A DNA stretch of 42,594 nt. Origin: a virus. The notes under the pieces are model-generated. The model had not been told where the DNA came from. It did no database searches and saw only the letters and a list, made by a program, of their open reading frames with translations. The stretch spans positions 1 to 42,594 of IMG/VR virus record IMGVR_UViG_3300049846_000701, one strand, 5' to 3'. The position numbers and the translations under genes were made by a program. Of this stretch, positions 3,371-41,530 are shown one piece after another. The stretch's first letter is position 1, and the number at the start of each line of letters is the position of its first letter.

Positions 3371-3377
3371 AGAGGTA

Positions 3378-3483: not shown

Positions 3484-3641
3484 TAAGCTTAGACACACAT
3501 TACCAAACTTCTTTTTATATGTCAATAAACAAACAACCACCCATTTCTGAGTGGAAGCTCGTCACTATTAACACAAAAACCCTAGTAGGGGCGTAAGGTA
3601 GTTTTATTATAACATACTTATCCACAATTCAATAACCATAC
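3420..3641. other. Non-coding gap with DnaA box upstream of P2
   Basis: No gene is visible. Contents: the second copy of the 11-bp repeat and the palindrome at 3483-3492, a short hairpin CCCT-AGT-AGGG near 3580, an AT-rich stretch (3601-3617), and a perfect DnaA box TTATCCACA at 3618-3626. A partial copy of the P2 spacer motif (CAATAACCAT) lies just after the box. Probably a control region for the divergent operons. Confidence 0.5.
3618..3626 (+). promoter_or_regulatory. DnaA box (TTATCCACA)
   Basis: Second exact DnaA-box match, ending 15 bp before the P2 -35 element and next to AT-rich DNA. The parallel with the copy upstream of P1 suggests a shared function. Confidence 0.5.
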
Positions 3642-4132: not shown

Positions 4133-4430
4133 GTTTAGAGCGTGGTCAAATAGTACTAAGTCAATGTCACCACCTGCTAGCTTATTGGAACTGACTGAAA
4201 CATCAGCGAAGTTTGAAATGCCCGCCCTTATGGAAGACATGGTGGTCATGCAATACACAGGACTCAAGGATAAGAACGGTGTAGAGATATATGAGGGGGA
4301 TATTTTACAAGCAACTGACGAAATAATCGTTGTTGAGTTCCCATACTACGCTAATTACGTTCACCCCGAAGCAATGGAAATCATAGGCAACATATACGAA
4401 AACCCAGAACTATTGGGGGAAAAGAAATGA
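4119..4430 (+). CDS. YopX-family protein
   Basis: 103 aa. Starts MRQFKFRAW and contains MQYTGLKDKNGVEIYEGDIL, the hallmark of the YopX family (PF09643), then the typical end IIGNIYENPELL. The start at 4119 was chosen because AAGGAGA lies 9 nt upstream and MRQFKFRAW is the usual family N-terminus, although the frame is open further upstream. YopX proteins are frequent in phages and prophages and form oligomeric beta-rich assemblies; their role is not settled. It overlaps the nuclease gene by 4 nt (ATGA). Confidence 0.85.
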   Translation: MRQFKFRAWSNSTKSMSPPASLLELTETSAKFEMPALMEDMVVMQYTGLKDKNGVEIYEGDILQATDEIIVVEFPYYANYVHPEAMEIIGNIYENPELLGEKK

Positions 4431-5278
4431 GTCTATATGAGACAGGAGTAAGAGAAGCTTTAGATGAGTATATTATCAAGAAGAGCAAAGAGAAGAGAGA
4501 CTATAAGGAATACTGGTCTGCAAGTAGCGCGGGCTACTGCATGCGAAAGAATATATTTGATAGACTTGGCGTGCCAGCGGTTACGGACGACGCTAGAAAA
4601 TACAGGGTCTTTGAAGCGGGACACATCTTCCACGAATTTATGCAACGAATCACCAAAGAAGCAGGACTCTCAATAGCACAAGAAGTCGAACTCATAGATG
4701 ACAAACTAATGGTTAAAGGACACTTTGACGACCTGATACTAATTAAAGAAGATACGCCTTTTGGAGTGGAAAACATTGGTCTAACATCTCACCAACATGG
4801 TGAAGATATGCCAGAACCAAAACAGCACCTCATACTTTACGACTACAAAACAGTGAGCTCTCAATCCTTCAAATATAAGAAAGATAAAATGTCTCACTAC
4901 CATGAAATGCAACTAGGTACTTATATGTATATGTGGCGTAACCCCGATGTTTGGCTACCAAAGAATGACTGGCTACTAATGAAGAAGCACCTCAAAGAAG
5001 CTCGTATCTTAAACATATCTAAAGACGACCTAAGAATGAGTGAGGTACAGCTTATGTGGAGCCCACAACTAGAAAAGAAAGTCTATTCTTACTGGTCTAC
5101 ATTAAATGGCTATTGGAAGAATAAACAAATGCCCAAGTGTACTTGTGCGGACTATGAGATAAATAAGAAGACTGGTCTTGGGTTTATGGCTGATGAGCGG
5201 TACAACCCTTACTACTATGAGGGAGAGCCTTGTTCATTAGCGTGGCTAAAGAAGACCGAGAAGGAGTGGAAGAAATGA
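4427..5278 (+). CDS. Cas4/RecB-like PD-(D/E)XK nuclease with Fe-S cysteines
   Basis: 283 aa. Core motifs are visible in order: SASSAGYCMRK with C38, GHxxH at 65-69, acidic pair D101/D102 in VKGHFDD, D139-x-K141 in LYDYKT, and Q162-xxx-Y166. The C-terminus supplies C238, C240 and C269. One early and three late Cys is the layout of the iron-sulfur cluster in Cas4 and AddB-type nucleases. It probably acts as a DNA exonuclease in phage recombination or replication. It is ATGA-coupled to YopX and to the next gene, and lies near a possible SSB and a Hjc-like nuclease. No CRISPR array or Cas gene is present. Confidence 0.85.
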   Translation: MSLYETGVREALDEYIIKKSKEKRDYKEYWSASSAGYCMRKNIFDRLGVPAVTDDARKYRVFEAGHIFHEFMQRITKEAGLSIAQEVELIDDKLMVKGHFDDLILIKEDTPFGVENIGLTSHQHGEDMPEPKQHLILYDYKTVSSQSFKYKKDKMSHYHEMQLGTYMYMWRNPDVWLPKNDWLLMKKHLKEARILNISKDDLRMSEVQLMWSPQLEKKVYSYWSTLNGYWKNKQMPKCTCADYEINKKTGLGFMADERYNPYYYEGEPCSLAWLKKTEKEWKK

Positions 5279-15142: not shown

Positions 15143-18100
15143 TTATTTACGTTTTTGCCTATATGCTATGCTTGACTGTTTTAGTTTACCGTTCTCAACA
15201 GGGAACTTGAGTGCGTCTAAGCGGTCATACAGTGGTGTAAGGTCGGACTCGAACTTACCATAGGTTTCTTTGAGTCGCTTCTTTTCTGCCTCGATTTCGT
15301 CGTTTATCTGGTTGGCTATTTCGTTGGCCTTATCAATATCACCACTCTGTACTGCTTGAGTTATTTTACTACTATAGGCGTCCTTCTTGTCTAATAGTGG
15401 TCCGTAGGTTTCGTAGAATGTACTCTTTACTTGTCCGCCCCCCTCTGGAGAGAAGAACCTGCCAACGATTTGTTCTGACACCGCTCGGTTGCCACTCTCT
15501 TTACCCCTTATCTGGTCAACGGTTGCTAGGGCACCCTCCAGCCCACCAGCACCATAGCCGAGGACAACTTTTCTAACCTGTAGTGGTGAGAAGCCAAGGA
15601 GTTTACCGATATCCCGATATGATTGAGGCGTATTCTCAAATACTTGTTCATTCGCTGGCAAGCCTTTAAGGTTGTCTGGGATAATATTTCTGCCAGTGTA
15701 AATGTCTTGGTTGAGGGCAAGCTCTATGGCTGGTTTAACACCCTGTGGGACGGCTGACGATAGTACTTCTCTGCCTGTAGTGCCTACTGGGCTGAATGGG
15801 TCTATGGTTAGGTTTTTAACGGTTTCCAAGAATCCCTGCCTATCTCCAAGATACTCTGACTCTATGAAGTTTCTAAGTGGGTTAGCGAAATTAACCGCTC
15901 CTGGTGGTAGGGGTACTTTTATGTAGCCCTTGTCGCCGCCCAGAACAAATATTAGGTTTTTGTCCCTAACATAGCTTGGTATGTTTGCATAGAGGGCTGC
16001 CTTGTCTGGGTCGCTAAGGTTGTGGTAGGTAGCAATCGCCACGGGGGCGCCAATGGTCGCACCAATTTTAAGTGCTGTTGCCGCTGGTCTTCTCTTGAGG
16101 GCTCTCCCTAGGTTGGCTGCCCCCTGTACACTGGCATTGAAGTATGGGTTAAATACCTTCATGAAGGTAGCAAGCTCTCCCCTGTTTGCAAAGTTTATAG
16201 AGTTTCGCCTTGCAGCAGCGTTGGCACGCTGAATAGCCTGTTCTGGGTCGATGCCGTCCTCAATTGCTTTTTTATATGTCCCTAGGAAGTTTTGATATCT
16301 TGTTGACTTTTCAGTTGCTGAGATAATATTTTCGTATCTTCGTAGGACGTTCTCCCCCTTAACCCCTAAGTCTTCCAAGGTTTGTTGTGTGGCGGCTTTT
16401 AAGTTTCTTGCTAGGTCAACCTTGGTCATGTTACCGTTCGCCTTCAGGTATTCCTTAAACAGTGCTGACGGTTTAAACACCTCATCTGAAACACCAGGAA
16501 TCTTTCTAAGTACAGCATTACCAGTTGGCTTGAATACAGCTTCCTTTAACCCAGCCCAGATGGCTAGTGGGTTGTGTGTTGAACGTGCGTTTTGAGAGAC
16601 AATACCGCTTTCTATTTGGTCTCGTATAAAGTTTGGCACAGCGAAAGCTGCGTTAAGGGAGGTGGCCCCCTCTCTAAGTAGACGGCTAGGTAGTAGTAGT
16701 ACATTAGATATTGCACGTAGTTCTAGGTCAGATGCCCCCGCAAGTTGTCTTGCTGCTCTTGGGTCTATAGTATAGAGTTCCTTTACTCCGTCTTCCAGTA
16801 CGGATAGTGTCTTTTGCCTTACACCCTCTTCCCCGTATAGCTGTTTTATTTTGTCATAGGCGGCAGAGGTGGTTTGTAGTTGATTGGACTTACCTGCGGC
16901 CACGGCCTGGTCTCTGACATACTTTGCTAGGTCATTGCGTTCGACATCTAGTGTGACTCGTCGCTGCCAATCCTCGTATGCTGCGAATGGGTCAACAGCC
17001 TCCTTTGTGGAGCCCTTAAGTTTCTGTGAAATTATCGGCTTTTGTCCTGCCAGCCCAGATTGTCCGTAACGGGTTGCCTGGTCTTCAAGAACCTCTCTCT
17101 GAACACGGGTGTAGTCAGGGTCGTTTATCCACTGGTCATACTTAGCCTTATCTATTATACCGTTATCAAACATGTACTGGATGTCATTCTTGGTTGACTG
17201 GTTAAGTAATTTATATGCCTGCTCTTGTTCTGCCGAGCCTACGGGTACTTTAACCTTAGTTCCTTTAATCTTTCCCGCCTCCACAAGCTTATTGTTGTTA
17301 ATAGCGTTCTGTTTCTCTTTGATGAAGGCACCAAACTCATCATACTTTTCCTTGCTACCAGCAATGAGTGGTTTAAGTTGTTGGAAGGCTGGGTTTTCCT
17401 CTAGCCTTGCTTGTGCTTTAGAGGCAAACTGTCTGACGTTGGTTATCCTGTCCTCTAGTTCGTCCCTTATTAACCTGCCAGTGTTGGTATCAGTTGCGTT
17501 GCCAAACTGTTTCTTAATGAAGTTTGTGTCGTCTACAACCTTTGCTACGAACTCGTCTTTTAGGCTTGTTATTTTCTTAAATGTATTAGTCTCTGCTGCT
17601 GCTCTACCTAGAGATGTTTCGCTGATGCTCGGTATCTTCTGAGCTATCTTTTTGCCGCCAGCACCCAATACTGCACCTCCAGCAGATAAGCCAGCGCCAA
17701 GTCCAGCACCTACGGCTGCATTTTTAGCTATCTCATTGACCGAAGCATCTGGATTACTCCTTAGCGTGCTACCAGCGCCACCCACAGCACCGCTGGCCGC
17801 AGTCTCAGCAATAGCTCCAGCGGCACCAAGAGCACCGCCAGCCTTGTACGCAGCCTTAACACCCTTACCTCCAACTAAGTAGCTTGTTAGTTCTGCGGTT
17901 GCACCCAGAAACTTCTTTTTGTTTGTTTCAGATTCAACAGTTTTGGTCCTTTGAGATATTTCTTGAGCCCGTTGCCTTTCTAAGTCGTTTAGAGAGTTTA
18001 GTAATATATCTTTTCTCTCTTTTGGAACAGTGGGGTCGTTGAGCTCTGTGATTACTGCTGTGCGCAGTTTATCTAGTGATTCTTGGGAGCGGGCGAGTAA

Positions 18101-18565
18101 TTTTTCCTCTGCATTACCTGCCGTTGCCCTCGTAACGCCACTGGCAACCGTTGATATTGCCCGACCAGTGTCCTTAACGAGTTCACCACCGATGTTTAGT
18201 GCGCCACCGATAACTTTGCTGCCAATCCCCTTTTGTGGTGTTACGCCATAGCCTGGACGAGTTCTGTCTGCGAAAGAGCGTATATCACTTAAACCAAGCC
18301 CAGACTGTTTGGCTATATCCTCATAAGACATCCCCTGGTCTAGCCCTGCGTTTATTATGTCCTCTTCTTTTTTTCTTCTCTCTAGCCTAGCGTCCCTCTG
18401 TTGGTAGAGCTTCTTCCCTAGTTCGGGATTTGAGAGAGCCATGAAAGTGCTGTTGAAGTCCAGATTATTGTCATTCTGATAACCTGACTGTATGTTTAGT
18501 TCCTCGTTACTTTTAATCTTGCCTTGCTTTTGAGCTTCACGGTAGAAGTTTGTTAAAAAGGACAT
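15143..18565 (-). CDS. Large internal virion (DNA-ejection) protein, LPD38-like
   Basis: 1140 aa, the largest protein in the window, with a strong SD (AAAGGAGG). A Gly/Ala-rich hydrophobic stretch at about 220-310 could insert in membranes. The part from about 640 to 960 contains FMKVFNPYFNASVQGAANL and PDKAALYANIPSYVRD, which I associate with large polyvalent protein domain LPD38 of phage virion proteins. Its position after two Gln/Ala-rich proteins mirrors the T7 gp14-15-16 ejection set. No transglycosylase motif was seen. The family call is from memory. Confidence 0.7.
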   Translation of the reverse strand: MSFLTNFYREAQKQGKIKSNEELNIQSGYQNDNNLDFNSTFMALSNPELGKKLYQQRDARLERRKKEEDIINAGLDQGMSYEDIAKQSGLGLSDIRSFADRTRPGYGVTPQKGIGSKVIGGALNIGGELVKDTGRAISTVASGVTRATAGNAEEKLLARSQESLDKLRTAVITELNDPTVPKERKDILLNSLNDLERQRAQEISQRTKTVESETNKKKFLGATAELTSYLVGGKGVKAAYKAGGALGAAGAIAETAASGAVGGAGSTLRSNPDASVNEIAKNAAVGAGLGAGLSAGGAVLGAGGKKIAQKIPSISETSLGRAAAETNTFKKITSLKDEFVAKVVDDTNFIKKQFGNATDTNTGRLIRDELEDRITNVRQFASKAQARLEENPAFQQLKPLIAGSKEKYDEFGAFIKEKQNAINNNKLVEAGKIKGTKVKVPVGSAEQEQAYKLLNQSTKNDIQYMFDNGIIDKAKYDQWINDPDYTRVQREVLEDQATRYGQSGLAGQKPIISQKLKGSTKEAVDPFAAYEDWQRRVTLDVERNDLAKYVRDQAVAAGKSNQLQTTSAAYDKIKQLYGEEGVRQKTLSVLEDGVKELYTIDPRAARQLAGASDLELRAISNVLLLPSRLLREGATSLNAAFAVPNFIRDQIESGIVSQNARSTHNPLAIWAGLKEAVFKPTGNAVLRKIPGVSDEVFKPSALFKEYLKANGNMTKVDLARNLKAATQQTLEDLGVKGENVLRRYENIISATEKSTRYQNFLGTYKKAIEDGIDPEQAIQRANAAARRNSINFANRGELATFMKVFNPYFNASVQGAANLGRALKRRPAATALKIGATIGAPVAIATYHNLSDPDKAALYANIPSYVRDKNLIFVLGGDKGYIKVPLPPGAVNFANPLRNFIESEYLGDRQGFLETVKNLTIDPFSPVGTTGREVLSSAVPQGVKPAIELALNQDIYTGRNIIPDNLKGLPANEQVFENTPQSYRDIGKLLGFSPLQVRKVVLGYGAGGLEGALATVDQIRGKESGNRAVSEQIVGRFFSPEGGGQVKSTFYETYGPLLDKKDAYSSKITQAVQSGDIDKANEIANQINDEIEAEKKRLKETYGKFESDLTPLYDRLDALKFPVENGKLKQSSIAYRQKRK

Positions 18566-18567
18566 TG

Positions 18568-19320
18568 TTACCTCCTTTCAAGACCAGATGTGTTGAATAG
18601 GCTTATGCGTACTGGGTCTTTAAGTGGGTTAGTGTAGTCTTGTATGTGTGTTTTGTTTATGTACTTATCATACTTGTTGAAGAACTCTGATTCTGGGAGA
18701 CCCTTCTGCACCCAAAGTGCCCTCGCCTGGTTAAACGTTTCTGGGCTTACATTACCGTCTGCACCAGACAGCTTGATTAGCCCTGCCTCAGTATTACTCA
18801 AGAAGGTTTCTAGGTCCATATCCGCCGCAGCAGCAGAAGCCCTAGACGCAGCCCTAGACGCAGCCCTAGCCTGTTCCTGTTGATATTGTTGCTGTCTAAG
18901 TTGGTACTTTCTCTCTAGGTCGGTCATTGCTAGGTTTTGTTTCTGTGCTTCTAGGTTTTGGGTGTTGATTGTGCTAGCTAAGTCGCCCGCTGCTTGTCCT
19001 CTGGCTACATTGGCCTGTCCTGCAAGCTGTTGGTTGGCGCCTATGGCTTGGGCTCGCTGACCACCCAATAAGGCGTTTTGAAGGGTTGCAGCTTGCCCTA
19101 ATTGACCAGCTATATTCTGACCTAATTCTCCGCCTGCCACACCTCTTTGAGCAGCTGATTGATTAACAGCTTGTGTCTGCGCATTGGCATTGTTTGTAAG
19201 GCTAGCCATAAGGGTATTGTACAAATTCTGAATGGCTGGTGTTTGTTGTTGTATTGCCTGAACTGCCTGGTTAAATACAGGTGCTACCTGTTGATTTGCT
19301 TGAGCTATTTCTGGTTGCAT
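18568..19320 (-). CDS. Internal virion protein, Gln/Ala-rich
   Basis: 250 aa. Residues 1-170 are almost all Gln, Ala, Asn and Gly in helical register (QAVQAIQQQTPAIQNLYNTL), followed by QQQYQQEQARAASRAASRAS. The composition is like T7-type internal core protein gp14 and related ejection proteins. It lies between a similar smaller protein and the 1140-aa protein, with a 1-nt overlap. Confidence 0.65.
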   Translation of the reverse strand: MQPEIAQANQQVAPVFNQAVQAIQQQTPAIQNLYNTLMASLTNNANAQTQAVNQSAAQRGVAGGELGQNIAGQLGQAATLQNALLGGQRAQAIGANQQLAGQANVARGQAAGDLASTINTQNLEAQKQNLAMTDLERKYQLRQQQYQQEQARAASRAASRASAAAADMDLETFLSNTEAGLIKLSGADGNVSPETFNQARALWVQKGLPESEFFNKYDKYINKTHIQDYTNPLKDPVRISLFNTSGLERR

Positions 19321-19778
19321 TATAGATAACCCCCCGCAAGTGCTTGTTGCTGAAGTGCGTACTCCCTATTTGACTGAGCTATTTGGTTTTGTAGTTGTTG
19401 CTGTTGAATAAAGTTGCCCTGTAATGCGTTGGCTAGCTGTGCGATAGCGCTGGCTTGGTCTACTTGTAGGCCGCCAATATCCTTATATATACCGCCAATG
19501 TCTTTAGCGTTCTGAGCGGCTAGTTGCCCTCTCTGCCCTGTAATGTCAGCGGCTACTTGTGCCTGGCCATAAACTGGAATAGTAGAGCGTAGTATACCCC
19601 TAGAATTAGAGTCTTCTAATACGTTTTGAAAGCCTGCTTGCTGTTGTCCTTGGAGAGCATTAAACTGGGCGGCATAAGATTGGTTGATTGGTTTTATCTG
19701 ACCCTGGAGAGCCCTTATCTGCTGGGTATACCCTGGAGAGAGTTGACTTTGCGCTGTTCTTATGTATGAAGTTGCCAT
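19320..19778 (-). CDS. Internal virion protein, Gln-rich
   Basis: 152 aa, starts MATSYIRTAQSQLSPGYTQQ, Gln-rich helices with a central Gly segment (DIGGIYKDIGG). Related in composition to the next gene and probably part of the same ejection complex. It is the first gene after an internal promoter (19809-19838); only a weak SD (AAAG) is present. Confidence 0.6.
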   Translation of the reverse strand: MATSYIRTAQSQLSPGYTQQIRALQGQIKPINQSYAAQFNALQGQQQAGFQNVLEDSNSRGILRSTIPVYGQAQVAADITGQRGQLAAQNAKDIGGIYKDIGGLQVDQASAIAQLANALQGNFIQQQQLQNQIAQSNREYALQQQALAGGYL

Positions 19779-19808
19779 TTGTTTTTACTTTCTTTGTTAC
19801 TAAGCATA

Positions 19809-19838
19809 ATTATAACCGTAAATCAAGCGTTTTATCAA
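19809..19838 (-). promoter_or_regulatory. Late internal promoter before ejection genes
   Basis: On the minus strand, TTGATA (19838-19833), 18-bp spacer, TATAAT (19814-19809). The start would be near 19802, 24 nt before the Gln-rich virion gene. It overlaps the gap after the tail gene at 19835. Confidence 0.55.
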
Positions 19839-20350
19839 CTACTTATACGAAATACCATCCTACTCATCATTGAGTTTACATACTCAGTAGTACCATTCCC
19901 GCCGTCAATCCTGTGTTGAATTTTAAACTCGTGTTCTCCATCTGGTTTCGGCAATATATCAGAGCGTATTCTTGTAGCCGTTGTGGATGTGGTGGATATT
20001 TCTGAGTTCTCCACTGGTTCATCTGTGGTAATGTTATACAGTCTATAATACCCAGTCCCAGCATCAGTTTTACCTATCATCTCAAAATACCATGTGTGGC
20101 CAGTCCAGTCGTCGAAGTTAATAGTACCTAATGACCCTTGAATATCTGTATATGTTGAGTTTGTTGTCCAAGAATCTGTCCACTGTGGGTGCATTTGTAA
20201 CCAAGTTTCACTCTTATACTGTTCAAAGGCATTGTTTAGTATGCGTTGGTGGTCGTTGAGCTGTTTAATAATTGAGTCGAGTTTTGCGTTGATGTCATCA
20301 CCTGTAGCGCCAATACTATAGTCTGGATTAGATGGGAATATCTGACTCAT
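19835..20350 (-). CDS. Tail-associated protein (171 aa)
   Basis: Starts MSQIFPSNPDYSIGATGDDI, followed by a coiled-coil-like segment (NAKLDSIIKQLNDHQRILNN) and a beta-rich C-terminal domain with WTGHTWYFEMIG. Helix followed by beta sandwich suggests a small trimeric fibre or a nozzle-associated protein. Its start overlaps the tail-nozzle stop by 4 nt. Confidence 0.55.
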   Translation of the reverse strand: MSQIFPSNPDYSIGATGDDINAKLDSIIKQLNDHQRILNNAFEQYKSETWLQMHPQWTDSWTTNSTYTDIQGSLGTINFDDWTGHTWYFEMIGKTDAGTGYYRLYNITTDEPVENSEISTTSTTATRIRSDILPKPDGEHEFKIQHRIDGGNGTTEYVNSMMSRMVFRISS

Positions 20351-22611
20351 TGTAGTCGCCTTGTTCTTACTGTTGGCAGTATTCCTAGAACTTCAATGCC
20401 CTCACCGTACCCAGATTGGTCTATTTGGAACTTGAAGTATTTAGCTAGTCCTTGGAACTCTGCAATTCTTGTGGTTATGATTGACCCCTCTGAGCTCCAA
20501 ACATCTGTATCCCAGACCGCGGTATCCCATAGGGAGTTTGTGCCAGGAGAAAGGTTTATGGCTGTTCCTGTAGTTTCTGTTTCTGATATGTTAGCAAGTT
20601 GAGTGACCGTCATTTCCCAGTCACCAAGAGATAATTGCTGGATGTAGAATTTCTTTATAGCTTTGTCGTTCATACCAGTACCAAAGGATAGTGATGGGGT
20701 CACATATCTAGTGGTTATTTCGTAGCCGTCATCATGTGAGCCAGTGTCAAACCGATACATTACACCTTGATTAGACGAGCTAAAGTATATCTGTCCACTA
20801 TCGTTACTACCATCCCAAACTACCCAGTCTGAGGCATGTATGTTCTCAAACTTACCCCACACACCCATTTCATAGTGGTAAAAGAGTGCTTCGTCATTAT
20901 ATGAGCCACTATTAGACGTATAGGATATGAGATAAGTGTTGTTCCACAGGACTGCGACTGGACTTGTTTTATTTGCCCAGGCATCAATAGAAGTATTAAC
21001 CACTCCCTCTGATATATTCTTTAGGTTTGAGCCGTCAAATAGGTATACGCCCTTGTCTGATAGGAATGTAAGCAGGTCGCCATACTCTACAAGCGTTCTC
21101 TTGTCTATCATGCCAATCTCATTGGTCACATTCCTGAGTTCAAAGTTGGATGGTGAACTACCTAAGAGTCGCCATATAGACCGTCTTTGGAAGACGTACA
21201 GACCATTATTAAGTGAGTATAGTCCCGTTCCAATATCTCCCTTACTAGACGGGATGATAATAGAGCCAGCGTTGTTGGCGGTGTCAAAGTCGTTGAAGTG
21301 TTCCTCTGTTACTGAGGTGTCTAGTGCTGAGAACCTTAGAGTATTACCCTCTAGTGTCCAGATACGGTTAAGGTGGTTTTCTATAAAGTCTGGTTGTGGG
21401 CGGTTTAGCCCTGACGGTGCGGTTGCGGTATTGAGTTTACCTTGTATCTCGCCCCACGGTGAGATAGTGTAAGTCTGCCCAGACAGGGTTGAGCCCAAAT
21501 AAGCCGTTTCGATAGTAAGCGACGTGTTTGAGCCTATTGCAACAATCTTATACCACTTGCCGTCTGGTAGTTTTATGTATTCGCCCGTTTCGGCATTTGT
21601 AGATGTGTTCCACGATGTTCCAGAACCAGTAACGGTGGTGGAGTTGTTGGTGGCGGTTATGGTACCAGTGGTATAGTCAGAGTTGGTTGAGCCTCGGTAC
21701 TTCTTAATATAGTTAGTTTTATCGATAACCAGTAGTGTGTCGTTTGCTACTGTATAGTCTATGTATTCAGATGAACTTAGGCTAACTCCAGATGGAAGGG
21801 ATATGGTGGTCATAGCACCAGTTCCGTCGTTACCCCTATATAATGAACTACCAACTTTTACAAATGTTTGTTTAGTACCTGTAGTGTTATAAAAGCGAAT
21901 CATGCCAGTGGTGGCTGTTGCGCCAGTGTAGACGTTAAACTTGAGGTCGGTTGAGGCTACTGCTGACCAGCTAATTCCTGAATCGGTTGAAGAGTAGGCC
22001 GCACCATTAGCGTAGGCATTGCCTGTACGGTGTACTAGAACGGTATTTATTGTCTGAGTAGTTGTTTGGGCGATGTACGGTTTAAGCACAACCGCATACT
22101 CTGTAGAAGCTGTCAGTGCGTATGGTACGTTAAATCTAAAGCTGTACTCTGTTTCAGACGTCCCAGAGACAAGAAGTATCTGCCCATCTATTAGTTTAGC
22201 GCTTGGACCTGTACTGCCGCTCCATAATTCCGCTTTCATATACTGTTCTTGACCGCCCGTATTCATAGCAAGATAGAAGTCACATTGAACTATGCTTGCA
22301 CCAGCACCTACTTGGAAAGTCTGAGCCACCCAGTCTGATACTGCGTCTAGGGTTATGGTGCCAGTTGATGCTCCCGTATTGGCCTCATCGCTAGATGACG
22401 CTATTGGGTCGCCATTATATCTGAGATAACCATTCCTTGTTTTTATGGAATGGGTGTCTGTAAATACAACATTAGCCATGTCTGGTGACTGGTTGGGTTG
22501 TAACTTAGTTTCATGTGGGTCGGTAACAAGACCGCCAATAAAATCAAACTCTTGTAGCGGCTGTTCGGGTACGTTCTTGAACCTGATGTTTTGTTGAAAG
22601 TTGAGAGGCAT
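20347..22611 (-). CDS. Tail nozzle / stabilisation protein (T7 gp12-like)
   Basis: 754 aa. The start (PLQEFDFIGGLVTDPHETKL, then PNQSPDMANVVFTDTHSIKT) is characteristic of podovirus tail-tubular-B/stabilisation proteins. The middle contains repeated beta strands (GTSWNTSTNAETGEYI, LTFLSDKGVYLFDGS), as in a propeller. It follows the adaptor gene, the usual order. SD GAGG lies upstream. Confidence 0.75.
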   Translation of the reverse strand: MPLNFQQNIRFKNVPEQPLQEFDFIGGLVTDPHETKLQPNQSPDMANVVFTDTHSIKTRNGYLRYNGDPIASSSDEANTGASTGTITLDAVSDWVAQTFQVGAGASIVQCDFYLAMNTGGQEQYMKAELWSGSTGPSAKLIDGQILLVSGTSETEYSFRFNVPYALTASTEYAVVLKPYIAQTTTQTINTVLVHRTGNAYANGAAYSSTDSGISWSAVASTDLKFNVYTGATATTGMIRFYNTTGTKQTFVKVGSSLYRGNDGTGAMTTISLPSGVSLSSSEYIDYTVANDTLLVIDKTNYIKKYRGSTNSDYTTGTITATNNSTTVTGSGTSWNTSTNAETGEYIKLPDGKWYKIVAIGSNTSLTIETAYLGSTLSGQTYTISPWGEIQGKLNTATAPSGLNRPQPDFIENHLNRIWTLEGNTLRFSALDTSVTEEHFNDFDTANNAGSIIIPSSKGDIGTGLYSLNNGLYVFQRRSIWRLLGSSPSNFELRNVTNEIGMIDKRTLVEYGDLLTFLSDKGVYLFDGSNLKNISEGVVNTSIDAWANKTSPVAVLWNNTYLISYTSNSGSYNDEALFYHYEMGVWGKFENIHASDWVVWDGSNDSGQIYFSSSNQGVMYRFDTGSHDDGYEITTRYVTPSLSFGTGMNDKAIKKFYIQQLSLGDWEMTVTQLANISETETTGTAINLSPGTNSLWDTAVWDTDVWSSEGSIITTRIAEFQGLAKYFKFQIDQSGYGEGIEVLGILPTVRTRRLQ

Positions 22612-22615
22612 TACT

Positions 22616-23305
22616 CTACCTCACCTCGTTAGACAAACCTGTGTGATTAATATACGTCTCTGGTCCAGTGATTTTGAAGTTATCTGTGTCTGTCGGTTGG
22701 GTCAATAGGTTCTGTCTTGCTAGTGCTACTATTTGTTCGTAGCGGTTAGAAGCTTTTTGTGCCAAGTCTGGGTCTGTATTGAAGTCGTGTTCTAGTGATA
22801 GTGCGTACTGCAATAATGCCTCTCTATAGGCTATTGGTATAATAGGTGTGTCTGAGTCAGCAGAAAGTTCTGTTGGTATTTTATAGTAGTCAATAGCAAC
22901 AGAGTAAACGTCGTTTGGTAGTGGCCAGAAGCCAATAGAACCACCCTTAATGTAGTATCTGGTTGGGACTGATGCGCCGTCTGAGTCGAAGTCTGGTTCG
23001 TCAACTCTAAGTTGGTTAAATGGCCAATAGACAAGTTTCCTATTATTAGAACCCTGAATACTGACTGAAACAATGTTCTGCGCGTCGATGTCCGAAAAGT
23101 TAGATGATAAACTATATTCTTGAGTGCTGGCTACCGTTGAGAGTGTACCAGTTGTCTCTCTGAATGGCCACAATTCTCTTAATACAAAATCATAATAACC
23201 CATGTTAATCCAGTTTTTAATTCTGTTTCTAGTGGTCGAATCTGATTTCGATACTAAGCTAAGTACATTGTCTTGTATCTCTCTGTAGGTACTGTTAGCT
23301 GCCGT
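22616..23305 (-). CDS. Tail adaptor (tail tubular A-like), apparent ACG start
   Basis: 229 aa if begun at ACG 23305. The conserved-looking N-terminus TYREIQDNVLSLVSKSDSTT, then RNRIKNWINMGYYDF, typical of head-tail adaptors, lies upstream of the first ATG (23203). The open frame contains no ATG, GTG or TTG before that ATG, which itself has no SD. AAGGA (23317-23313) sits 7 nt before ACG 23305, the normal spacing in this genome. The frame then gives (M)AANSTYREIQ. ACG is one base from ATG. The HNH gene ends only 4 nt upstream, so its insertion may have changed the start. Confidence 0.7.
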   Translation of the reverse strand, partial: TAANSTYREIQDNVLSLVSKSDSTTRNRIKNWINMGYYDFVLRELWPFRETTGTLSTVASTQEYSLSSNFSDIDAQNIVSVSIQGSNNRKLVYWPFNQLRVDEPDFDSDGASVPTRYYIKGGSIGFWPLPNDVYSVAIDYYKIPTELSADSDTPIIPIAYREALLQYALSLEHDFNTDPDLAQKASNRYEQIVALARQNLLTQPTDTDNFKITGPETYINHTGLSNEVR

Positions 23306-23309
23306 AGTT

Positions 23310-23840
23310 TTATCCTTCTTTCTTTGCCGTGAAGTTACACCATCTCTGGCCTGGTTTCATTTTTCTTTTAAATGTTATGTAGTAGTGGCAAGGTACACAT
23401 AACGTTCTGCCATTATCAACATTATAGCGCAACTCTTCATTATCGGACCACTTATTTATATGGTCTGCGTGCAGAGTCCCGCCATATTGTTCACAGACTT
23501 GACAGGTGTAATTATCTCTATCAAATACTTTGCTTCTCCAACTTTTATATCCTAGGGTCCCCATAGCTTGGTGTCGCGCAGTACCAGTACCACCCTTATA
23601 GTTCCATGGCGTAACGTGCGGCCTTGGTCCTTTTTTGCCCGTTTTAATCCCAGTTAGCCCCTTATTCCACGGGCTAATACCTTCCTTTAGTTTATTACCT
23701 CTCATCATGCTCCTATACATAGGCTTGGTACAATCACGTGAACAAAACCTACAGGCACTGTACTTAAGGTCGGAGGGGTATACGGAAAAGACTTTTTTAC
23801 AGGTTTCACATGTTCTCTCTATTCTGGTCGATTTTCTCAT
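23310..23840 (-). CDS. HNH homing endonuclease with NUMOD3-type segment
   Basis: 176 aa. N-terminal zinc finger (C11, C14, C30, C33/C37), a NUMOD3-like DNA-binding segment (GISPWNKGLTG), and a C-terminal HNH nuclease: C113/C116, HADH with H124-H127, N140/N143, and C148-x2-C151-H152. Free-standing homing endonucleases of this type insert between phage genes. It has its own extended -10 promoter and SD (AAGGAAGG), and separates the adaptor gene from its expected start. The flanks are too short for a group I intron. Confidence 0.85.
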   Translation of the reverse strand: MRKSTRIERTCETCKKVFSVYPSDLKYSACRFCSRDCTKPMYRSMMRGNKLKEGISPWNKGLTGIKTGKKGPRPHVTPWNYKGGTGTARHQAMGTLGYKSWRSKVFDRDNYTCQVCEQYGGTLHADHINKWSDNEELRYNVDNGRTLCVPCHYYITFKRKMKPGQRWCNFTAKKEG

Positions 23841-23872
23841 CTTTGTTTGCCTTCCTTTTTATTTCTGTTTGC

Positions 23873-23881
23873 ATTATAACA
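23873..23881 (-). promoter_or_regulatory. Extended -10 promoter of the HNH gene
   Basis: The minus strand reads TGTTATAAT (23881-23873), an extended -10. Transcription would start near 23866, 26 nt before the HNH ATG, whose SD lies in this leader. An independent promoter is usual for homing endonuclease genes. Confidence 0.45.
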
Positions 23882-23899
23882 CTGTGTGTGATATTAGCA

Positions 23900-24211
23900 C
23901 TACTTTTTTACTGGACTAACCGTCTCTGTGACTTCCGCCATTGCATTAATACCTTGAGATATTTCAGCCTTAAGTGCGTCTTCTGCTGCTTTAATCTCAA
24001 CATCGGCTTGTAATACTTCGTATACTGGGGCTACGGCTTTTTCTCTTTCAACCGCTGCGTAAAGTTGCATATTCTCAGCGAGAAGAAGCTTATTAAGTAA
24101 CGCCTCTTTTTCTTCTAGTGTCGTTGGAATCGTGGTAATCCCATGATATGCACACTTTTGCTCAAGAATAGACACCGCTTTGTCGTCTGATATTTCATAG
24201 TTGATATTCAT
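23900..24211 (-). CDS. Hypothetical protein (103 aa)
   Basis: Starts MNINYEISDDKAVSILEQKC; then helical, with IPTTLEEKEALLNKLLLAEN and an Ala/Glu/Val-rich end. SD AAAAGGAG. Not recognised. It lies between the methyltransferase and the HNH/adaptor genes. Confidence 0.55.
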   Translation of the reverse strand: MNINYEISDDKAVSILEQKCAYHGITTIPTTLEEKEALLNKLLLAENMQLYAAVEREKAVAPVYEVLQADVEIKAAEDALKAEISQGINAMAEVTETVSPVKK

Positions 24212-29442: not shown

Positions 29443-30690
29443 TTAGTCGTTTATATGCTTTATTGTACCACCTATTCGTATGGTTTCCACTCCGTTTCTG
29501 TCTGGCTGTTGCCTAAATGGGTCTACAACTATAGAGCCTTTTGGTATTTTGTACTCTTTGTAGCGTGCGTGGTTAGTGCCTATAACGTAGATTGCTTTCT
29601 GTAACAAGCCTTCAAGGTCTTCATGGTGCTGTGGGAATAACCCACGCTCCTTCAGTATATTGACCATTAAAATAGATGGACTGCCAGTCTCTATATTGGT
29701 TTCTGGTTTAAATGAGCGTCCTAGAACAATCACTGGCAAGTTCCACGTCTCGGCCTCGTGTAATACTACGTCTGCCAGCCACTCCATGTGAGCTTCTCTG
29801 GATTCCATAAGGTCTTCCCAGATGTTATGAGACATACCTACCTGTTCGGCTATGTGTGAAAGGGCTATGTTGTCTCTTGGGTGGCATCCGCCACCATCTC
29901 CAACACCAGAGTCCATATATCTAGGGCTAATCAAGCGTCTGTCAGCTAATTTCCACGCTTTTAGTATGTCATCGAAGTTCATACCAGTCTTGTGCGCCAT
30001 TTCTCCCCAGGCGTTTGCTATCACCGTCTTCGCAGTTATCCACGTATTATAAGAGACCTTTATTCCCTCAGCTGTGGTAATATCTGTCTGGAGGGTGGGG
30101 GCGTCGTTTAGTTTGGCATAGAAAAGTCCCAGCTGGTCTGCCGCTGAAACGCTCTCAACTCCAACTAGGTTGAACTCTGGATATAGATAATCATTTAATA
30201 CAGTTCCCATAGCTATGAACTGGGGCGTATATACATATTCAATATTCTCGTTTAATAATGGTTTAATCTCGCGCTCGTAAGTACCTGGTAGGCAGGTAGA
30301 AATGGTGGCTAGGGTAGTAACTTTCCCTAGCTCTTTTGATATTGTGGCTATATTAGTAACTGCTTCTTTAAGAAATGAGTAGTCAAAGTCTGCGCGTTCA
30401 TCTGGTAATCTAGTCGACCCCTCGTATTCAGGACCATGGGGAGTTTGGACTGGTAAGAAGAGTATGTCCGATTTAGCTACAAGCTCTCCAAGTGTCCGCA
30501 CCATACTAACATTTGTGCGGTCTAATAGTGGTTGTAACCCCTCTTCTTTGAAAGGTATCTGGCGACTTTCAATATAGTCGTAAGGTTCTTGTCTTACGTC
30601 GTAACCAACAACCTCAAAACCCCTGCTCTCTATGGCAAGAGCTACTGGTAAACCAAGCTTACCCATTCCGCAAACACCTATTGTTTCCAA
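29443..30690 (-). CDS. UDP-glucose/GDP-mannose dehydrogenase family enzyme
   Basis: 415 aa. NAD-binding Rossmann start GVCGMGKLGLP (residues 5-15), the STCLPGT segment at 131-137, the central helix with KVSYNTW (211-217), and the catalytic-cysteine motif GDGGGCHPRD with Cys269. It would oxidise a UDP-sugar (for example UDP-glucose or UDP-HexNAc) to the uronic acid in two NAD-dependent steps. Size is in the family range. It lies in a glycan cassette and overlaps the methyltransferase gene by 13 nt. Confidence 0.8.
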   Translation of the reverse strand: METIGVCGMGKLGLPVALAIESRGFEVVGYDVRQEPYDYIESRQIPFKEEGLQPLLDRTNVSMVRTLGELVAKSDILFLPVQTPHGPEYEGSTRLPDERADFDYSFLKEAVTNIATISKELGKVTTLATISTCLPGTYEREIKPLLNENIEYVYTPQFIAMGTVLNDYLYPEFNLVGVESVSAADQLGLFYAKLNDAPTLQTDITTAEGIKVSYNTWITAKTVIANAWGEMAHKTGMNFDDILKAWKLADRRLISPRYMDSGVGDGGGCHPRDNIALSHIAEQVGMSHNIWEDLMESREAHMEWLADVVLHEAETWNLPVIVLGRSFKPETNIETGSPSILMVNILKERGLFPQHHEDLEGLLQKAIYVIGTNHARYKEYKIPKGSIVVDPFRQQPDRNGVETIRIGGTIKHIND

Positions 30691-31214: not shown

Positions 31215-31955
31215 CTACCACTCCAACTTCTCTCTTAATTTTTCTCCTGGTCTTAGCCCAGTATACTCAATCCCATAAGGATATGTTTCTAGTGTATATC
31301 CATGCTCAGACAGCTTCTCTTCTGCTAAATCAACTATCTTGATGTCTTTGTCCATCTTGGGGACGATTTCTCTGTCTCCATTTAGGTAAGCTGTCCATAC
31401 TCGCTTGGCTAGGTTCTCTGGTGTTACAAAGTATCTGTGCATGTCTTTATGGGTGATTCTAATTGGGCGCTTTCTTCTAATTGCTTCCTCCCAGACATTT
31501 AAGACTGAGCCTGTTGAAGCGAGAATGTTGCCTGACCTTGCGTAGGCACCACCATACTCCCATGCCATAGCTTCTCCAAGAGCCTTAGAGTAGCCATATA
31601 CCGATGTTGGTTCTACCGCCTTATCTGTGCTCATAAAGAGGATGTCTGTGCCTGTGTAGCGAGCTGTCTTAAATAGAACGTGTGTTTTTAATACGTTATT
31701 CATCACACAGGCGTTGGGGCTTTTCTCGCAAAAGTCAATATGTTTCATAGCGGCTAAATGGATAACGGTATCTATGTCCTCCAGGTCAACGTCTGCAAAA
31801 TCCCCTATTTGTAATTTTACATTGGGGAAGTCCCTGGTAAATAATGTAAGCCGTTCTTCGTTATGGTCAACACCATACAGTTCGTGGTCTTCGTATAGTA
31901 GCTCCGTGAAAGCCCTACCTAGTGTTCCTGTTATTCCTGTTATGTATAGTTTCAT
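31215..31955 (-). CDS. Extended SDR, 4,6-dehydratase/epimerase-like
   Basis: 246 aa. TGITGTLG at 6-13 is the NAD(P) motif, IHLAAMKHIDFCE follows, and FMSTDKAVEPTSVYGYSK gives the S/T and Y120-x3-K124 catalytic residues. GLRPGEKLREKL near the end is typical of the CapD/FlaA1/PseB branch (UDP-GlcNAc 4,6-dehydratases/epimerases). It is shorter than usual for that branch. Probably makes a deoxy or epimerised UDP-sugar. ATGA overlap with the upstream GT gene. Confidence 0.75.
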   Translation of the reverse strand: MKLYITGITGTLGRAFTELLYEDHELYGVDHNEERLTLFTRDFPNVKLQIGDFADVDLEDIDTVIHLAAMKHIDFCEKSPNACVMNNVLKTHVLFKTARYTGTDILFMSTDKAVEPTSVYGYSKALGEAMAWEYGGAYARSGNILASTGSVLNVWEEAIRRKRPIRITHKDMHRYFVTPENLAKRVWTAYLNGDREIVPKMDKDIKIVDLAEEKLSEHGYTLETYPYGIEYTGLRPGEKLREKLEW

Positions 31956-32596: not shown

Positions 32597-33314
32597 TTAT
32601 AAACTCCCTTAACATTTCTATCTCATCTTCCCTCTCTATTCTTTTTTCTCTACTGTAATAAATTAAGTCTGGGTGGTCTCTTTCGTGCCGTTTAAGACGT
32701 TCCTCGGTGTTGTTGTCCATAGGTGATTTGCCAAGCGAATAGTGCATGTGTTCTATAGTATGATTATGTATGTACGTGCGAACACCTAACTTCTCGGCTA
32801 CGTCATTAAACCAAGTATCATTATAGTCCGAAACAAAGTATGGCGGAACAAATCTGCCAATAACATTAGTCCAGTTGCGGTGTATAAAGCCGTGTGTGCC
32901 AAATTCATTGCGTTGAGACTCGTTACTATAATCGTTACACCAAGCAAAACATATCTTACCTGGGCGGGCGTTTATAGCCTCTCGAATAGCTGTATCCCAG
33001 CCTTTAGTCCTGAATACAATGTCATCCCCACAGTGCATGAATATGTCACCAGTGGCTTTTTTCCAGCATCTATTCCATTTAATAGATAGATTAACCTTAC
33101 CGTTGTGTTTGCGCGGTCCTCTTACGAAGATTACCTGAGATGTGCGAAGTTTACGTTTGCTATAGCTCGGGTCATCATTATCTATATAAGCTACAAGCTC
33201 TAGTGAGCGTGGGTTATCAGCGGTGTCTAGGGCTGAGTGCCACATTCTAGCTAACATATCTGGACGTTCTCTCGTTGGTAAGAGAAGGCTTATTCGTTGA
33301 AGCTTGCTACCCAT
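32580..33314 (-). CDS. Family 2-like glycosyltransferase
   Basis: 244 aa. ISLLLPTRERPDML at the start, LVAYIDNDDP, and KATGDIFMHCGDDIVFRTKG with the acidic metal-binding pair; YFVSDYNDTWFNDVAEKLG probably carries the acceptor-site Asp. C-terminus basic and helical. Overlaps the large GT gene by 25 nt. Confidence 0.75.
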   Translation of the reverse strand: MGSKLQRISLLLPTRERPDMLARMWHSALDTADNPRSLELVAYIDNDDPSYSKRKLRTSQVIFVRGPRKHNGKVNLSIKWNRCWKKATGDIFMHCGDDIVFRTKGWDTAIREAINARPGKICFAWCNDYSNESQRNEFGTHGFIHRNWTNVIGRFVPPYFVSDYNDTWFNDVAEKLGVRTYIHNHTIEHMHYSLGKSPMDNNTEERLKRHERDHPDLIYYSREKRIEREDEIEMLREFINEQTS

Positions 33315-35647
33315 TGTTCAGCCACCGCCCTCCAACTATTAGTTCTTGCCCACTCCATCATATCTTTTCTGATAGCTTCCTGTTTCTCTGGGTGTTTCAA
33401 CATATCTATAAGCGCTTCTTTAAAAGGTTTGAGGAACTCTTCATCCCCAGCGCCTACAAGTGTGCCTTCTTTTTGCTCTTTCATCGGGAGTTTAATACCA
33501 TATTGTACGGTTTCGTCTAATGCAGCAAAGTTGCTTGATACAGGTACGGCTCCACCAGCTTGTGCTTTAATAGCGGTGATACAGTAAATCTCTGGGAACG
33601 GACAAGGGTATGCCCATACACCTGACTCGAAGATGTGTTGCATTATCTCTTTTTGCCCAACCTTACCGTGGTCGGTAACACCGTCTAGTTTCTGGGCTTT
33701 AATCATCATGTCGTCCATCCACTTCATTCTTTCGGGGTTGCCTTTGTGAACAGCGTCATAGGATTCACGGCCATAGTAAACATCAAGCGTGGCTTCGGGC
33801 ACAGCTTTCTTAACCTCGGGCCAAACTTCATAGATATAAGCCAGTCCTCTAACGTGTGATGAACCATAAAAGACTTTGTGAGGGTCGCGTTTAATACCCA
33901 TTTTATCCATTTCCTCAAATTCTTCTGGGTCGATACCGTTAGCTGAGAGCATAATCTTCTCATCTGGGATATTAGGGAATAGTGAGCGGTGATATTTAGA
34001 TAGGACTAAAACTTTATCAATGTTATTAAGCCTGTTTGGGGTGAACTCACCTACGTCCATAACGTCGTGTAGCCAGAGGTATTTCTTACGGGCTTTAATC
34101 TTTCTCTCAAATATAAATGGAGCTCTCCATGCTATAAATATGTCGAACTCATCTTCTAGGTTACAATCCCAGAAGTTTCGCCACATAACACCATTCTCAT
34201 CTACGCCAGCGTTTGCTCCTGGTTTAGCAAACACAACTACTTTATACCCTAGGTCTGAGAGGTGTTTAGATATGCGTATAATAGCTTCTTCTGAGCCACC
34301 TATGCCGTCTTTGAGACTCCATGGTCCCCATTCGTCTATCATAGTGTCACCAGTCATAATGGCTATCGTTCTCTTAGGCCACTTAACACCCTTACCGTCG
34401 TTGCGAAGTGCTGAGACTATTGGATTATCTGCTAGATGGTTGGGTAATGAGTCTAGGACTTTCATAGCTTTACGCTTTTGCTTCTTATCCATAAATTTCT
34501 TGAAACGCGTGATGGCATCTTGTAGTTCTGTGCGGTCTTTATCTATCTGAATAACCATATCGGTGTATTCTTTAACACCTGGGTCTTTCTTCTTGTATTT
34601 ACGTGCTTTCTTAGCGTATTTAGCGGCTTTAGGTAGATAACTGCCACCAAGATTAAGGTAGGCATCTGCTAATAGTAAATAAGTCCTGAATGTGTAAGAC
34701 ATCGGGTTACGTTCTAGGGTTGTGAGGTTTTTATCCATCTTCTCTACATACTCTAGCCAAATTATTGCCTTATCGTACTTCTTCAGTTCTATTTCTAGGC
34801 TGCCCATTTCAACTCTAGGTTCTGGGTTGGCTGGGTCTTCGGCTACAGCTCTTGCGAAATACTCTTTAGCCTGACTTCTCTCACCTTTGTCTAAGGCTAT
34901 CCTACCCATCTTTGTGAGAGCGACACTTCTCTCTTGGTCCCAGCCAGATACAGTTAGGTAGTCTGTAAATAGTTCTAGTGCTCTATCCTGTTCACCCGCG
35001 TCCATGAGGGTTGAGGCTAAGTAATAAAATGTGCGTGGGTCTGGGTCTTCTGCCTCATCGGCAAGCTGTTTCTCCAATAAATTGATATTGCGCTCAAAGC
35101 TTCTTTGTGTTCTGTCTGCTTCTGCATGATGTATAACAATGAAGTCTTTAGTGGCTCCCTGAGTTACTCCCCTTTTTTCTATAAGGGTTTCATGTATTCT
35201 ACCCTTCCATTCATGGGAGTCATTGTTCTTAAACATTCTTGCTACTAGGTGAACGGTCTGTGGGTTATCTTCCTCGTCTCTGTCGTATAGGTAATCTACA
35301 AATATGGAATCATACCTGTCTGATACTTTTGCAACCTCTTTAATCTTTTCGGGATTATCAATTGTATCATCAGCATCTAGCCAGAGTATCCAATCATAGT
35401 CTTCTGGGACTTGGGCTAGGTTAGCGTTACGAGCTAAAGCAAAGTTGTCTTCCCATGTAGTCCGTATAACATTTACCTTGTACTCATCTAATAGCTGTGT
35501 GAGCTTTTCTGAGGACTCTGCACCCTCTTTCTTGTTAACATTGATAAATATACCGTCTACGTGTTTTGCAACGCTCTGAAGGCTTCTACGAAGGTGCTCT
35601 GCTTCGTCGTCTGAATCTTTTATGATATATATTAGTGCTACTTTCAT
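33290..35647 (-). CDS. Bifunctional glycosyltransferase: GT2 - TPR - GT4 fusion
   Basis: 785 aa from ATG 35647 (MKVALIYIIKDSDDEAEHL). An upstream in-frame start would add 17 basic residues and ignore the ATGA overlap with the mini gene. Residues 1-180: GT2 domain with WILWLDADDTID. Residues 200-400: TPR-like helices (ARTFYYLASTLMDAGEQDRA-type repeats). Residues 420-785: GT-B/GT4 domain with GIGGSEEAIIRISKHLSDLG, NGIDPEEF and a late FPEIYCITAIKAQAGG donor site. Such fusions build repeat glycans or glycosylate proteins. Confidence 0.8.
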   Translation of the reverse strand: MKVALIYIIKDSDDEAEHLRRSLQSVAKHVDGIFINVNKKEGAESSEKLTQLLDEYKVNVIRTTWEDNFALARNANLAQVPEDYDWILWLDADDTIDNPEKIKEVAKVSDRYDSIFVDYLYDRDEEDNPQTVHLVARMFKNNDSHEWKGRIHETLIEKRGVTQGATKDFIVIHHAEADRTQRSFERNINLLEKQLADEAEDPDPRTFYYLASTLMDAGEQDRALELFTDYLTVSGWDQERSVALTKMGRIALDKGERSQAKEYFARAVAEDPANPEPRVEMGSLEIELKKYDKAIIWLEYVEKMDKNLTTLERNPMSYTFRTYLLLADAYLNLGGSYLPKAAKYAKKARKYKKKDPGVKEYTDMVIQIDKDRTELQDAITRFKKFMDKKQKRKAMKVLDSLPNHLADNPIVSALRNDGKGVKWPKRTIAIMTGDTMIDEWGPWSLKDGIGGSEEAIIRISKHLSDLGYKVVVFAKPGANAGVDENGVMWRNFWDCNLEDEFDIFIAWRAPFIFERKIKARKKYLWLHDVMDVGEFTPNRLNNIDKVLVLSKYHRSLFPNIPDEKIMLSANGIDPEEFEEMDKMGIKRDPHKVFYGSSHVRGLAYIYEVWPEVKKAVPEATLDVYYGRESYDAVHKGNPERMKWMDDMMIKAQKLDGVTDHGKVGQKEIMQHIFESGVWAYPCPFPEIYCITAIKAQAGGAVPVSSNFAALDETVQYGIKLPMKEQKEGTLVGAGDEEFLKPFKEALIDMLKHPEKQEAIRKDMMEWARTNSWRAVAEQWVASFNE

Positions 35648-35724
35648 TTTCTTCCGAAACACATGTGCCCGTTTCTGGGATAGTATGCGTGACCGCAATT
35701 TCTACACCACTTGATGTAGGGCAC
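35644..35724 (-). CDS. Miniature zinc-knuckle-type protein (26 aa, GTG start)
   Basis: MPYIKWCRNCGHAYYPRNGH, then MCFGRK. Cys7, Cys10, a His and Cys22 could bind zinc. GTG overlaps the TAG of the upstream gene, AGGAG lies 10 nt before it, and the TGA overlaps the ATG of the GT fusion gene. Couplings on both sides suggest it is real. Not recognised. Confidence 0.45.
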   Translation of the reverse strand: MPYIKWCRNCGHAYYPRNGHMCFGRK

Positions 35725-36118: not shown

Positions 36119-36127
36119 ATTATACCA
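36119..36127 (-). promoter_or_regulatory. Late promoter for the glycan/tail unit (extended -10)
   Basis: The minus strand reads TGGTATAAT (36127-36119), identical to the element at 9174. The -35 is weak. It lies between the capsid terminator and the ATG at 36110. Predicted start 36111-36112, which leaves no room for an SD. Confidence 0.6.
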
Positions 36128-40178: not shown

Positions 40179-40201
40179 AGTTTATACCTTTTGTGATTAT
40201 A

Positions 40202-41530
40202 TCAGTAGCCCGTCGAACTATCAACAGCTCCATTATGTAGATATGTGAGTTCCTCATCCTCTATCTCTTGTTTATAACTAATAACAAAGTACCTTAGTGC
40301 GTCCATAAGGTGATTATTCTTGTCTTCTGGGAGGTTTACAGGGTCTCCAAGCCTGTCTTTACGCCATGAATACGACATAAACTCCTTAATTGTCCCCTTA
40401 CAGCGTGGGTGTACTATAATTTTGTCTTCTTTTAGTAATTGTTGTACTCGATTTATACCCGCCACTAGCCAGTTGGCGTTAGAGGCACCAGGGGCTTTCT
40501 CGTTTTTCTTAACTGGTATGGAATATATGCCATAGGTTGATAGGTCCATTATCTGTTGTTTAGCTGCTGAGTCAGAATAGGTGGCTATAAAGTATCTGTG
40601 GGCTCTTTTTTGTTTAATAAGTTCGGCTAGTTCTGACGTATAGAGGTTTGAGGCATATATTTCATCAAATATGTGTATAATACCGTCTCTGTCTATGCCT
40701 ATAAATGGTACGGCGTCTGGGTCGGTAGCACCAAAGTCAATGGCGTTGTAGAAACTCCAGTTGTCATCAACCTCAAACTCCTGTATGTGCTTCTTATCGT
40801 CAAAACCAGTATAGATAAGGCCAGTAAACTTGGCAAAGTCAGCCATATATTCCTGGGTAAAGAACTCTTCTGTAAGGCGTTCTCGTTCTTTGTCTAGGTT
40901 TTCTTTAGGTATAAGGGGGTTGTCATAAGAAGTAAAGTGAAAAGTCTTCCAGTCTTTGTCTCCGCTGGCTTCTAGGTCAACAGCATCATCCCAGAATTTT
41001 TTGAAATGATTAGCAACACCATTCGGAGTGGTAATAAAAATAGCCCAGCCGTTTGTCTGGACAAGCATAGGTGAGATAATCTTATTCCATACGTGCTCTT
41101 TCTGGAAGGCGTATTCGTCAAGTATGACACCCTTTAGCCCCGCACCACGAAGTTTATCCTCACGGTCAGAACCTTTAAACTCTATAATTGAGGTTTTATC
41201 CCCACGGAGTGTTCTAATCTCTAGTATAAGTTCATTGTCGTTTTGTTTAAGTACGAGTTCTTTGGGTATATATTCTCCTACAAGGTCGCGCCAGTAGATG
41301 CTCTTAGCCTGGGTGTACTCTGGGGCGATTATCCAATACCTACCTGGGTTGTGTAATGCTTCTCTTAATACGATGTTTAGCGCTAGGGCAGACTTACCAA
41401 AACGTCGTCCAGCTCGTATAACGAGATAGCGGTGTTTAAGAGATGCTTCGGCTATTTCTCTCTGCCCTGCGTGAGGAGCGAAGTCTATGGTGGCCTTATT
41501 CTGCTGCTTTATCTTGTCTAAGTTCGTCAT
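40202..41530 (-). CDS. Terminase large subunit
   Basis: 442 aa. Walker A RAGRRFGKSALA (G41, K46, S47), Walker B KGVILDEYAF near residue 140, a coupling SFITTPNG-like motif (AIFITTPNGVANHF), and the C-terminal RNase H-type nuclease acids in NAIDFGATDPDAVPFIGID, ATYSDSAAKQQ and NHLMDALRYF. It powers DNA packaging and cuts the concatemer. It overlaps the small subunit gene by 35 nt and precedes the portal gene. Confidence 0.92.
   Translation of the reverse strand: MTNLDKIKQQNKATIDFAPHAGQREIAEASLKHRYLVIRAGRRFGKSALALNIVLREALHNPGRYWIIAPEYTQAKSIYWRDLVGEYIPKELVLKQNDNELILEIRTLRGDKTSIIEFKGSDREDKLRGAGLKGVILDEYAFQKEHVWNKIISPMLVQTNGWAIFITTPNGVANHFKKFWDDAVDLEASGDKDWKTFHFTSYDNPLIPKENLDKERERLTEEFFTQEYMADFAKFTGLIYTGFDDKKHIQEFEVDDNWSFYNAIDFGATDPDAVPFIGIDRDGIIHIFDEIYASNLYTSELAELIKQKRAHRYFIATYSDSAAKQQIMDLSTYGIYSIPVKKNEKAPGASNANWLVAGINRVQQLLKEDKIIVHPRCKGTIKEFMSYSWRKDRLGDPVNLPEDKNNHLMDALRYFVISYKQEIEDEELTYLHNGAVDSSTGY

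Follow-up and report, generated by a model that had tools for sequence, protein, structure and literature searches.

The window analysed here is the IMG/VR record of an uncultured phage and is 42,594 bases long. It carries genes for terminase, portal and major head protein, and the locus described below lies on its minus strand. A leader of 59 nt (23841-23899), containing an extended -10-like element, TGTTATAAT, and a Shine-Dalgarno-like stretch, AAGGAAGG, precedes an open reading frame for an HNH endonuclease of 176 aa (23310-23840), which starts with ATG and ends with TAA at 23310-23312. Four nucleotides separate this stop codon from an ACG (23303-23305), the proposed start codon of a SU10-type head-tail adaptor gene (22616-23305, 229 aa counted from the ACG), and a Shine-Dalgarno-like AAGGA (23313-23317) is located within the last HNH codons, 7 nt before the ACG. 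The sequence-only reading had given the position of the ACG, the 4 nt spacing and the AAGGA, and the sequence agrees with it on all of them.

The adaptor frame is open from stop to stop between 23356 and 22616, with the ACG followed by 228 further codons. No ATG, GTG or TTG occurs in this frame before 23203, as had also been claimed; the first canonical start is the ATG at 23201-23203 (residue 35), use of which would remove 34 residues. When all start codons of translation table 11 were allowed, the earliest in the frame was the ATA at 23276-23278 (residue 10), and ACG is absent from that table.

The HNH protein matched Pfam PF01844 (E 1.2e-5, 25.8 bits versus a cut-off of 21.4), identifying a nuclease domain, and 16 PHROG families up to E 0.001, the majority of them annotated as HNH endonuclease. 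The 229-residue adaptor protein matched PF24175 (SU10_adaptor) with 90.3 bits (E 2.9e-25; residues 6-195, profile positions 2-181 of 194), above the curated cut-off of 27 bits and hence as a member of the family, and its gene sits in a portal-capsid-adaptor gene set. When the protein was begun at the ATG at 23203, the score decreased to 74.2 bits and the match covered profile positions 39-181 only, a loss of 16 bits and 37 positions, which indicates that 34 residues of real family sequence precede the first canonical start. As the earlier reading had supposed from the look of the protein, homology covers residues 2-34, ahead of any canonical start in the frame: the relatives described below align from residue 2, and PF24175 matches from residue 6. 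Searching the PDB with a profile built from six sequences gave no match to the adaptor at E 0.001. Adaptors of the SU10 family form a dodecamer between the portal and the nozzle; an AlphaFold model of the monomer had low confidence (pLDDT 53.8), and its helices at residues 7-17 and 23-43 fit the start of a helix bundle.

Elsewhere in the window, a UDP-glucose dehydrogenase, a nucleotide-sugar epimerase and a beta-1,4-glycosyltransferase-like protein are encoded among sugar genes (29443-30690, 31215-31955 and 33290-35698), and the frame at 4427-5278 matched a Cas4-like exonuclease family (PHROG 1990, 1706).

Start codon of the adaptor gene

Relatives were collected by searching IMG/VR with the adaptor protein and then with the alignment. 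Eight contigs free of the HNH gene covered the adaptor start (L002, L003, L005, L006, L007, L008, L046 and L047); by DNA identity they form five lineages, 56-64% alike between lineages, and their adaptor proteins are 69-75% identical to that of the window. Two further contigs were not included when start codons were counted, L009 (27% identity, matching from residue 28) and L004, which stops short of the start. The relatives aligned to the window adaptor without a gap from residue 1 to 200, and their start codons fell on the ACG, being ATG in seven of the eight contigs (four lineages) and TTG in L007 (one lineage), while the in-frame residues 5' of the ACG lay outside the alignment. A comparison of this kind had been suggested from the sequence alone, together with the proposal of non-AUG initiation on a virion gene; a canonical start exactly at the ACG position in all eight contigs makes this proposal the best-supported reading, and we infer from it the use of the ACG itself, which is likely but unproven. 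The TTG of L007 suggests that one relative manages with a weaker start.

Outside these contigs, megablast for close phage genomes gave no match, tblastn in phages reached at most 28.7% identity among 16 records, and bacterial and archaeal genomes yielded one distant relative (23%). Two of the HNH-free contigs, L002 and L003, are near-identical except for a stretch of L003 that does not align to L002, where L003 carries, at 2813-3490 and about 1 kb 5' of the adaptor, an HNH gene of another type (HNH_3, plus an AP2 match below threshold).

To describe the selective constraint on the residues before the first canonical start, we calculated pN/pS in six comparisons, each of the window versus one other sequence. 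Against L005, synonymous changes in codons 2-34 numbered 21 and non-synonymous ones 7 (pN/pS 0.09), whereas against the other five sequences the values for these codons were 0.23-0.39, with 0.20-0.28 for codons 35-200. Judging from these values, codons 2-34 have been protein-coding, with a signal of purifying selection that may predate or postdate the insertion of the HNH gene, and outside the L005 comparison they appear not to be especially constrained, resembling the rest of the gene or lying slightly above it.

As a start codon, ACG is very weak. The calculated anti-Shine-Dalgarno duplex was -5.5 kcal/mol at the ACG, with a spacing of 7 nt, compared with -2.9 at the ATA at 23278 and -3.1 at the ATG at 23203, and no stable RNA structure was found around the ACG (z 0.78). 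The AAGGA near the HNH 3' end would bring ribosomes to the adaptor, and ribosomes that have terminated at the HNH stop would re-initiate at the ACG to give fMet-AANSTYREIQ. In an E. coli reporter, a Shine-Dalgarno sequence raised re-initiation, and a 4 nt gap gave about half of the re-initiation seen at 1 nt (PMC2268962). Translational coupling is described as commonest at overlaps and gone by about 20 nt (PMC10666635), so that the 4 nt gap found here, compared with the usual overlap, counts against re-initiation. Initiation at the ACG would then be weak; a low adaptor yield may be tolerable, since an adaptor of the SU10 type is needed at twelve copies per virion, the number present in SU10 (PMC9509320).

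The alternative that fares best among those we considered, though still an unlikely one, is that the adaptor starts downstream, at the ATA at 23278 (220 aa) or the ATG at 23203 (195 aa), and that the shortened protein still works. The ATA is recognised in table 11, the ATG is the only canonical start of the frame, and conservation is lower over the first adaptor residues than in the core. Against this, the Shine-Dalgarno energies at both codons are weaker than at the ACG, and several of the first 34 residues, T6, E9, V14, L15 and K20 among them, do not vary across the alignment of six sequences. A start at the ATG would additionally incur the loss of profile match given above, and in the low-confidence model it would remove helix 7-17 and cut helix 23-43.

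It is less probable still, and in our view improbable, that the HNH insertion broke adaptor expression and that the genotype is a dead end or persists by co-infection. The weakness of ACG would fit a damaged gene, and the insertion could be recent, given that the one further contig spanning it shows no difference. This contig, L001, comes from another metagenome record and is identical to the window along all of its 6,098 nt, HNH gene and ACG included, so that the genotype was assembled from two records; a third record, L004, shares the downstream region (17076-23113), differing there at one position in 6,038 nt, and the ACG is outside its span. The adaptor frame is otherwise intact over its 229 codons, which also argues against damage.

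The same contig bears on whether the C of the ACG is an assembly or consensus error, as the sequence-only reading had considered. Such an error would need a single transition from ATG in metagenome sequence, but L001 carries the ACG as well, and a random error is disfavoured to the point of being very improbable, with the qualification that samples or reads may be common to both records. Searches of IMG/VR with two exact patterns, one for the junction and one of 24 bases for the adaptor 5' end, matched only this identical contig, and an uninserted allele of the same phage species was not found in these pattern searches.

Leader of the HNH gene and the proposed insertion

The HNH gene was present at this site in the window and L001 and missing from it in all eight relatives that cover the site. 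The distance from the upstream gene to the adaptor start in the relatives is 34-70 nt, and in the window the corresponding distance from the upstream gene to the HNH start is 59 nt. Within this HNH leader, TGTTATAAT (23873-23881) is followed by AAGGAAGGCAAACAAAG before the HNH ATG, with an anti-Shine-Dalgarno duplex of -7.8 kcal/mol; the adaptor leader of L002 contains TGCTATAAT and terminates in AAGGAAAACAAAG before the adaptor ATG.

To evaluate this likeness, we aligned 48 nt of each adaptor leader, ranked 49 leaders of the window and generated 2000 shuffles for each comparison. The 49 leaders came from 61 open reading frame starts, 12 having been dropped by hand (10 GTG or TTG, 2 ATG); for the adaptor, the ACG was taken as the start instead of 23203. 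The HNH leader ranked first of the 49 against L046 (1 of 2000 shuffles as good) and second against L002 (6 of 2000), where an unrelated leader of the window (15109) slightly outscored it; it ranked fifth against L007 (101 of 2000), 42nd against L005 (1935 of 2000) and 38th against L008 (760 of 2000). From these ranks and shuffle counts, a takeover of the leader is backed by two lineages and weakly by a third, while two lineages do not favour it, and the view that the HNH leader and ATG are the adaptor's former ones is supported but not proven.

The motif TGNTAYAAT, which includes the element in the HNH leader, occurred at 11 sites on both strands of the window versus 4.7 expected, a count reached in none of 100 shuffles, and this excess suggests that it may be a promoter element of the phage. 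Examples lie at 23873-23881, 36119-36127 and 40196-40204, and some copies stand just 5' of genes. A promoter scan with sigma-70 hexamers did not have the TGTTATAAT site among the sites that it listed. We also considered a leader duplicated at both ends of the HNH gene, where a 12 nt stretch matches at 11 of 12 positions, and rejected it because 202 of 2000 shuffles did equally well.

Taken together, we propose, with a probability of roughly 0.7, that the HNH gene was inserted at the adaptor start and took over its leader and ATG, leaving the adaptor to begin at the ACG. A free-standing, putatively homing HNH gene would have been inserted exactly at the adaptor start codon, and the promoter-like element, Shine-Dalgarno sequence and ATG of the adaptor would have been captured by the incoming gene, an origin by start-codon capture that is plausible from the comparison of leaders and starts. 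At the 5' junction the HNH gene could share its ATG with the old leader, and at the 3' junction GGCA, which stands after both the old and the new start, could be common, with the C contributed by the donor; microhomology at the junctions of illegitimate repair is described for T4, as is the placing of elements at critical sites, which makes them harder to lose (PMC2988022). Since the HNH leader and ATG look like the adaptor's former ones, the insertion may have brought in the ACG at its 3' junction; a single later change after insertion is an equally possible source. The earlier suggestion that an ATG was lost by mutation may therefore be half of the story, with the original ATG now possibly in use in front of the HNH gene. 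A donor allele was not found among the IMG/VR loci related to the HNH protein.

Two readings in which the HNH segment is bypassed at the RNA or ribosome level fit the locus poorly. Deletion of the 535 nt that follow the ATG and end with the ACG would restore the leader-ATG-adaptor order of the relatives, as expected if the segment were an intron or a bypassed stretch that joins the ATG at 23840 to the codon after the ACG, but the HNH frame fills 531 of the 535 nt of the insert, and Rfam gave no match at the gathering threshold in the window and, up to E 5 in 23100-24000, only an irrelevant lncRNA on the other strand. Group I introns have a U before the intron and a G at its end, and under these rules no boundary restores the frame; we consider this reading hardly credible. 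Least credible of all is a +1 frameshift at the HNH stop that yields an HNH-adaptor fusion, which could draw on the adaptor frame being open to 23356, beyond that stop, but would have to work without a recognised slippery sequence, through intervening residues that show no homology, and in a gene whose relatives start cleanly at the codon in the ACG position.

The proposed insertion at the start codon could also serve as a route of persistence: if the ACG of this essential virion gene were to fire only after translation of the HNH gene, the phage would need the HNH gene to keep being translated, and stops, frameshifts and deletions in it would be punished. We regard this extension as rather doubtful; in a variant of it, the ACG would also alter the HNH target and so keep the phage safe from its own endonuclease.

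If the ACG is used, the locus would be a natural case of a structural gene of a bacterial virus begun, by way of a mobile endonuclease, at a codon that gene finders using table 11 omit, and a simple reporter test at this site could address whether coupling is able to rescue a near-dead start codon. The proposed insertion, if true, would be an example of a selfish gene taking over start signals on which a needed gene relied. Programs that predict genes will cut such proteins short, beginning them at a downstream ATG.

Related loci and comparison with known systems

To determine if the arrangement is part of a wider pattern, we surveyed 33 IMG/VR loci related to the HNH protein, of which three ran off the contig and 30 were evaluated. 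A second adjoining gene left without its start was found at none of the 30, the only instance being L011, which is of the window's own type, and the proposed capture of a start codon is for this reason a single case so far. One further locus, L043, passed the filter for start loss and was rejected, because an ATG lies inside the HNH gene and intein-like residues are present; at L043:3189-3605 the residues after the HNH frame resemble what we take to be the C-terminal end of an intein, and the HNH may lie inside an intein region. In the literature, a search for phage genes with an ACG start returned no case by title or the opening of the abstract, and one may still be in print.

The closest parallel to the locus is given by the free-standing seg and mob endonucleases of T4 (PMC2988022). 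As there, a small HNH gene stands between two phage genes of the same orientation, appears to have no promoter of its own and to use one upstream, adjoins a critical gene and is absent from relatives; promoter-less endonuclease genes that use upstream promoters, and promoters displaced by such genes, are both described for T4 (PMC2988022). The T4 cases are, however, intergenic and displace promoters, whereas in the window the insertion would be at the start codon itself, the adjoining gene being left with an ACG. The adaptor resembles gp11 of SU10 (PMC9509320) in its nearly full-length SU10_adaptor match and in its portal-capsid-adaptor gene set, and differs from it in having only 229 residues, no PDB match at the threshold given above and an ACG start.

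Non-canonical starts are known from bacteria, namely GTC in sigR (PMC5472188) and, in S. aureus, AUA in infC and AUU in cvfC1, for which extended Shine-Dalgarno sequences are reported (PMC13009471). The window shares with them a weak start that would be rescued by a Shine-Dalgarno sequence, but those genes are regulatory and conserved, while the ACG belongs to a phage structural gene and to one phage genotype only. Finally, the ShiLan element of phage methylases (PMC11855218) is likewise a tight-edged HNH insertion in a phage gene with no detectable intron or intein, as given in that account; ShiLan lies in frame within its gene with the HNH in another frame, whereas the HNH gene of the window precedes the adaptor and ends before it begins.
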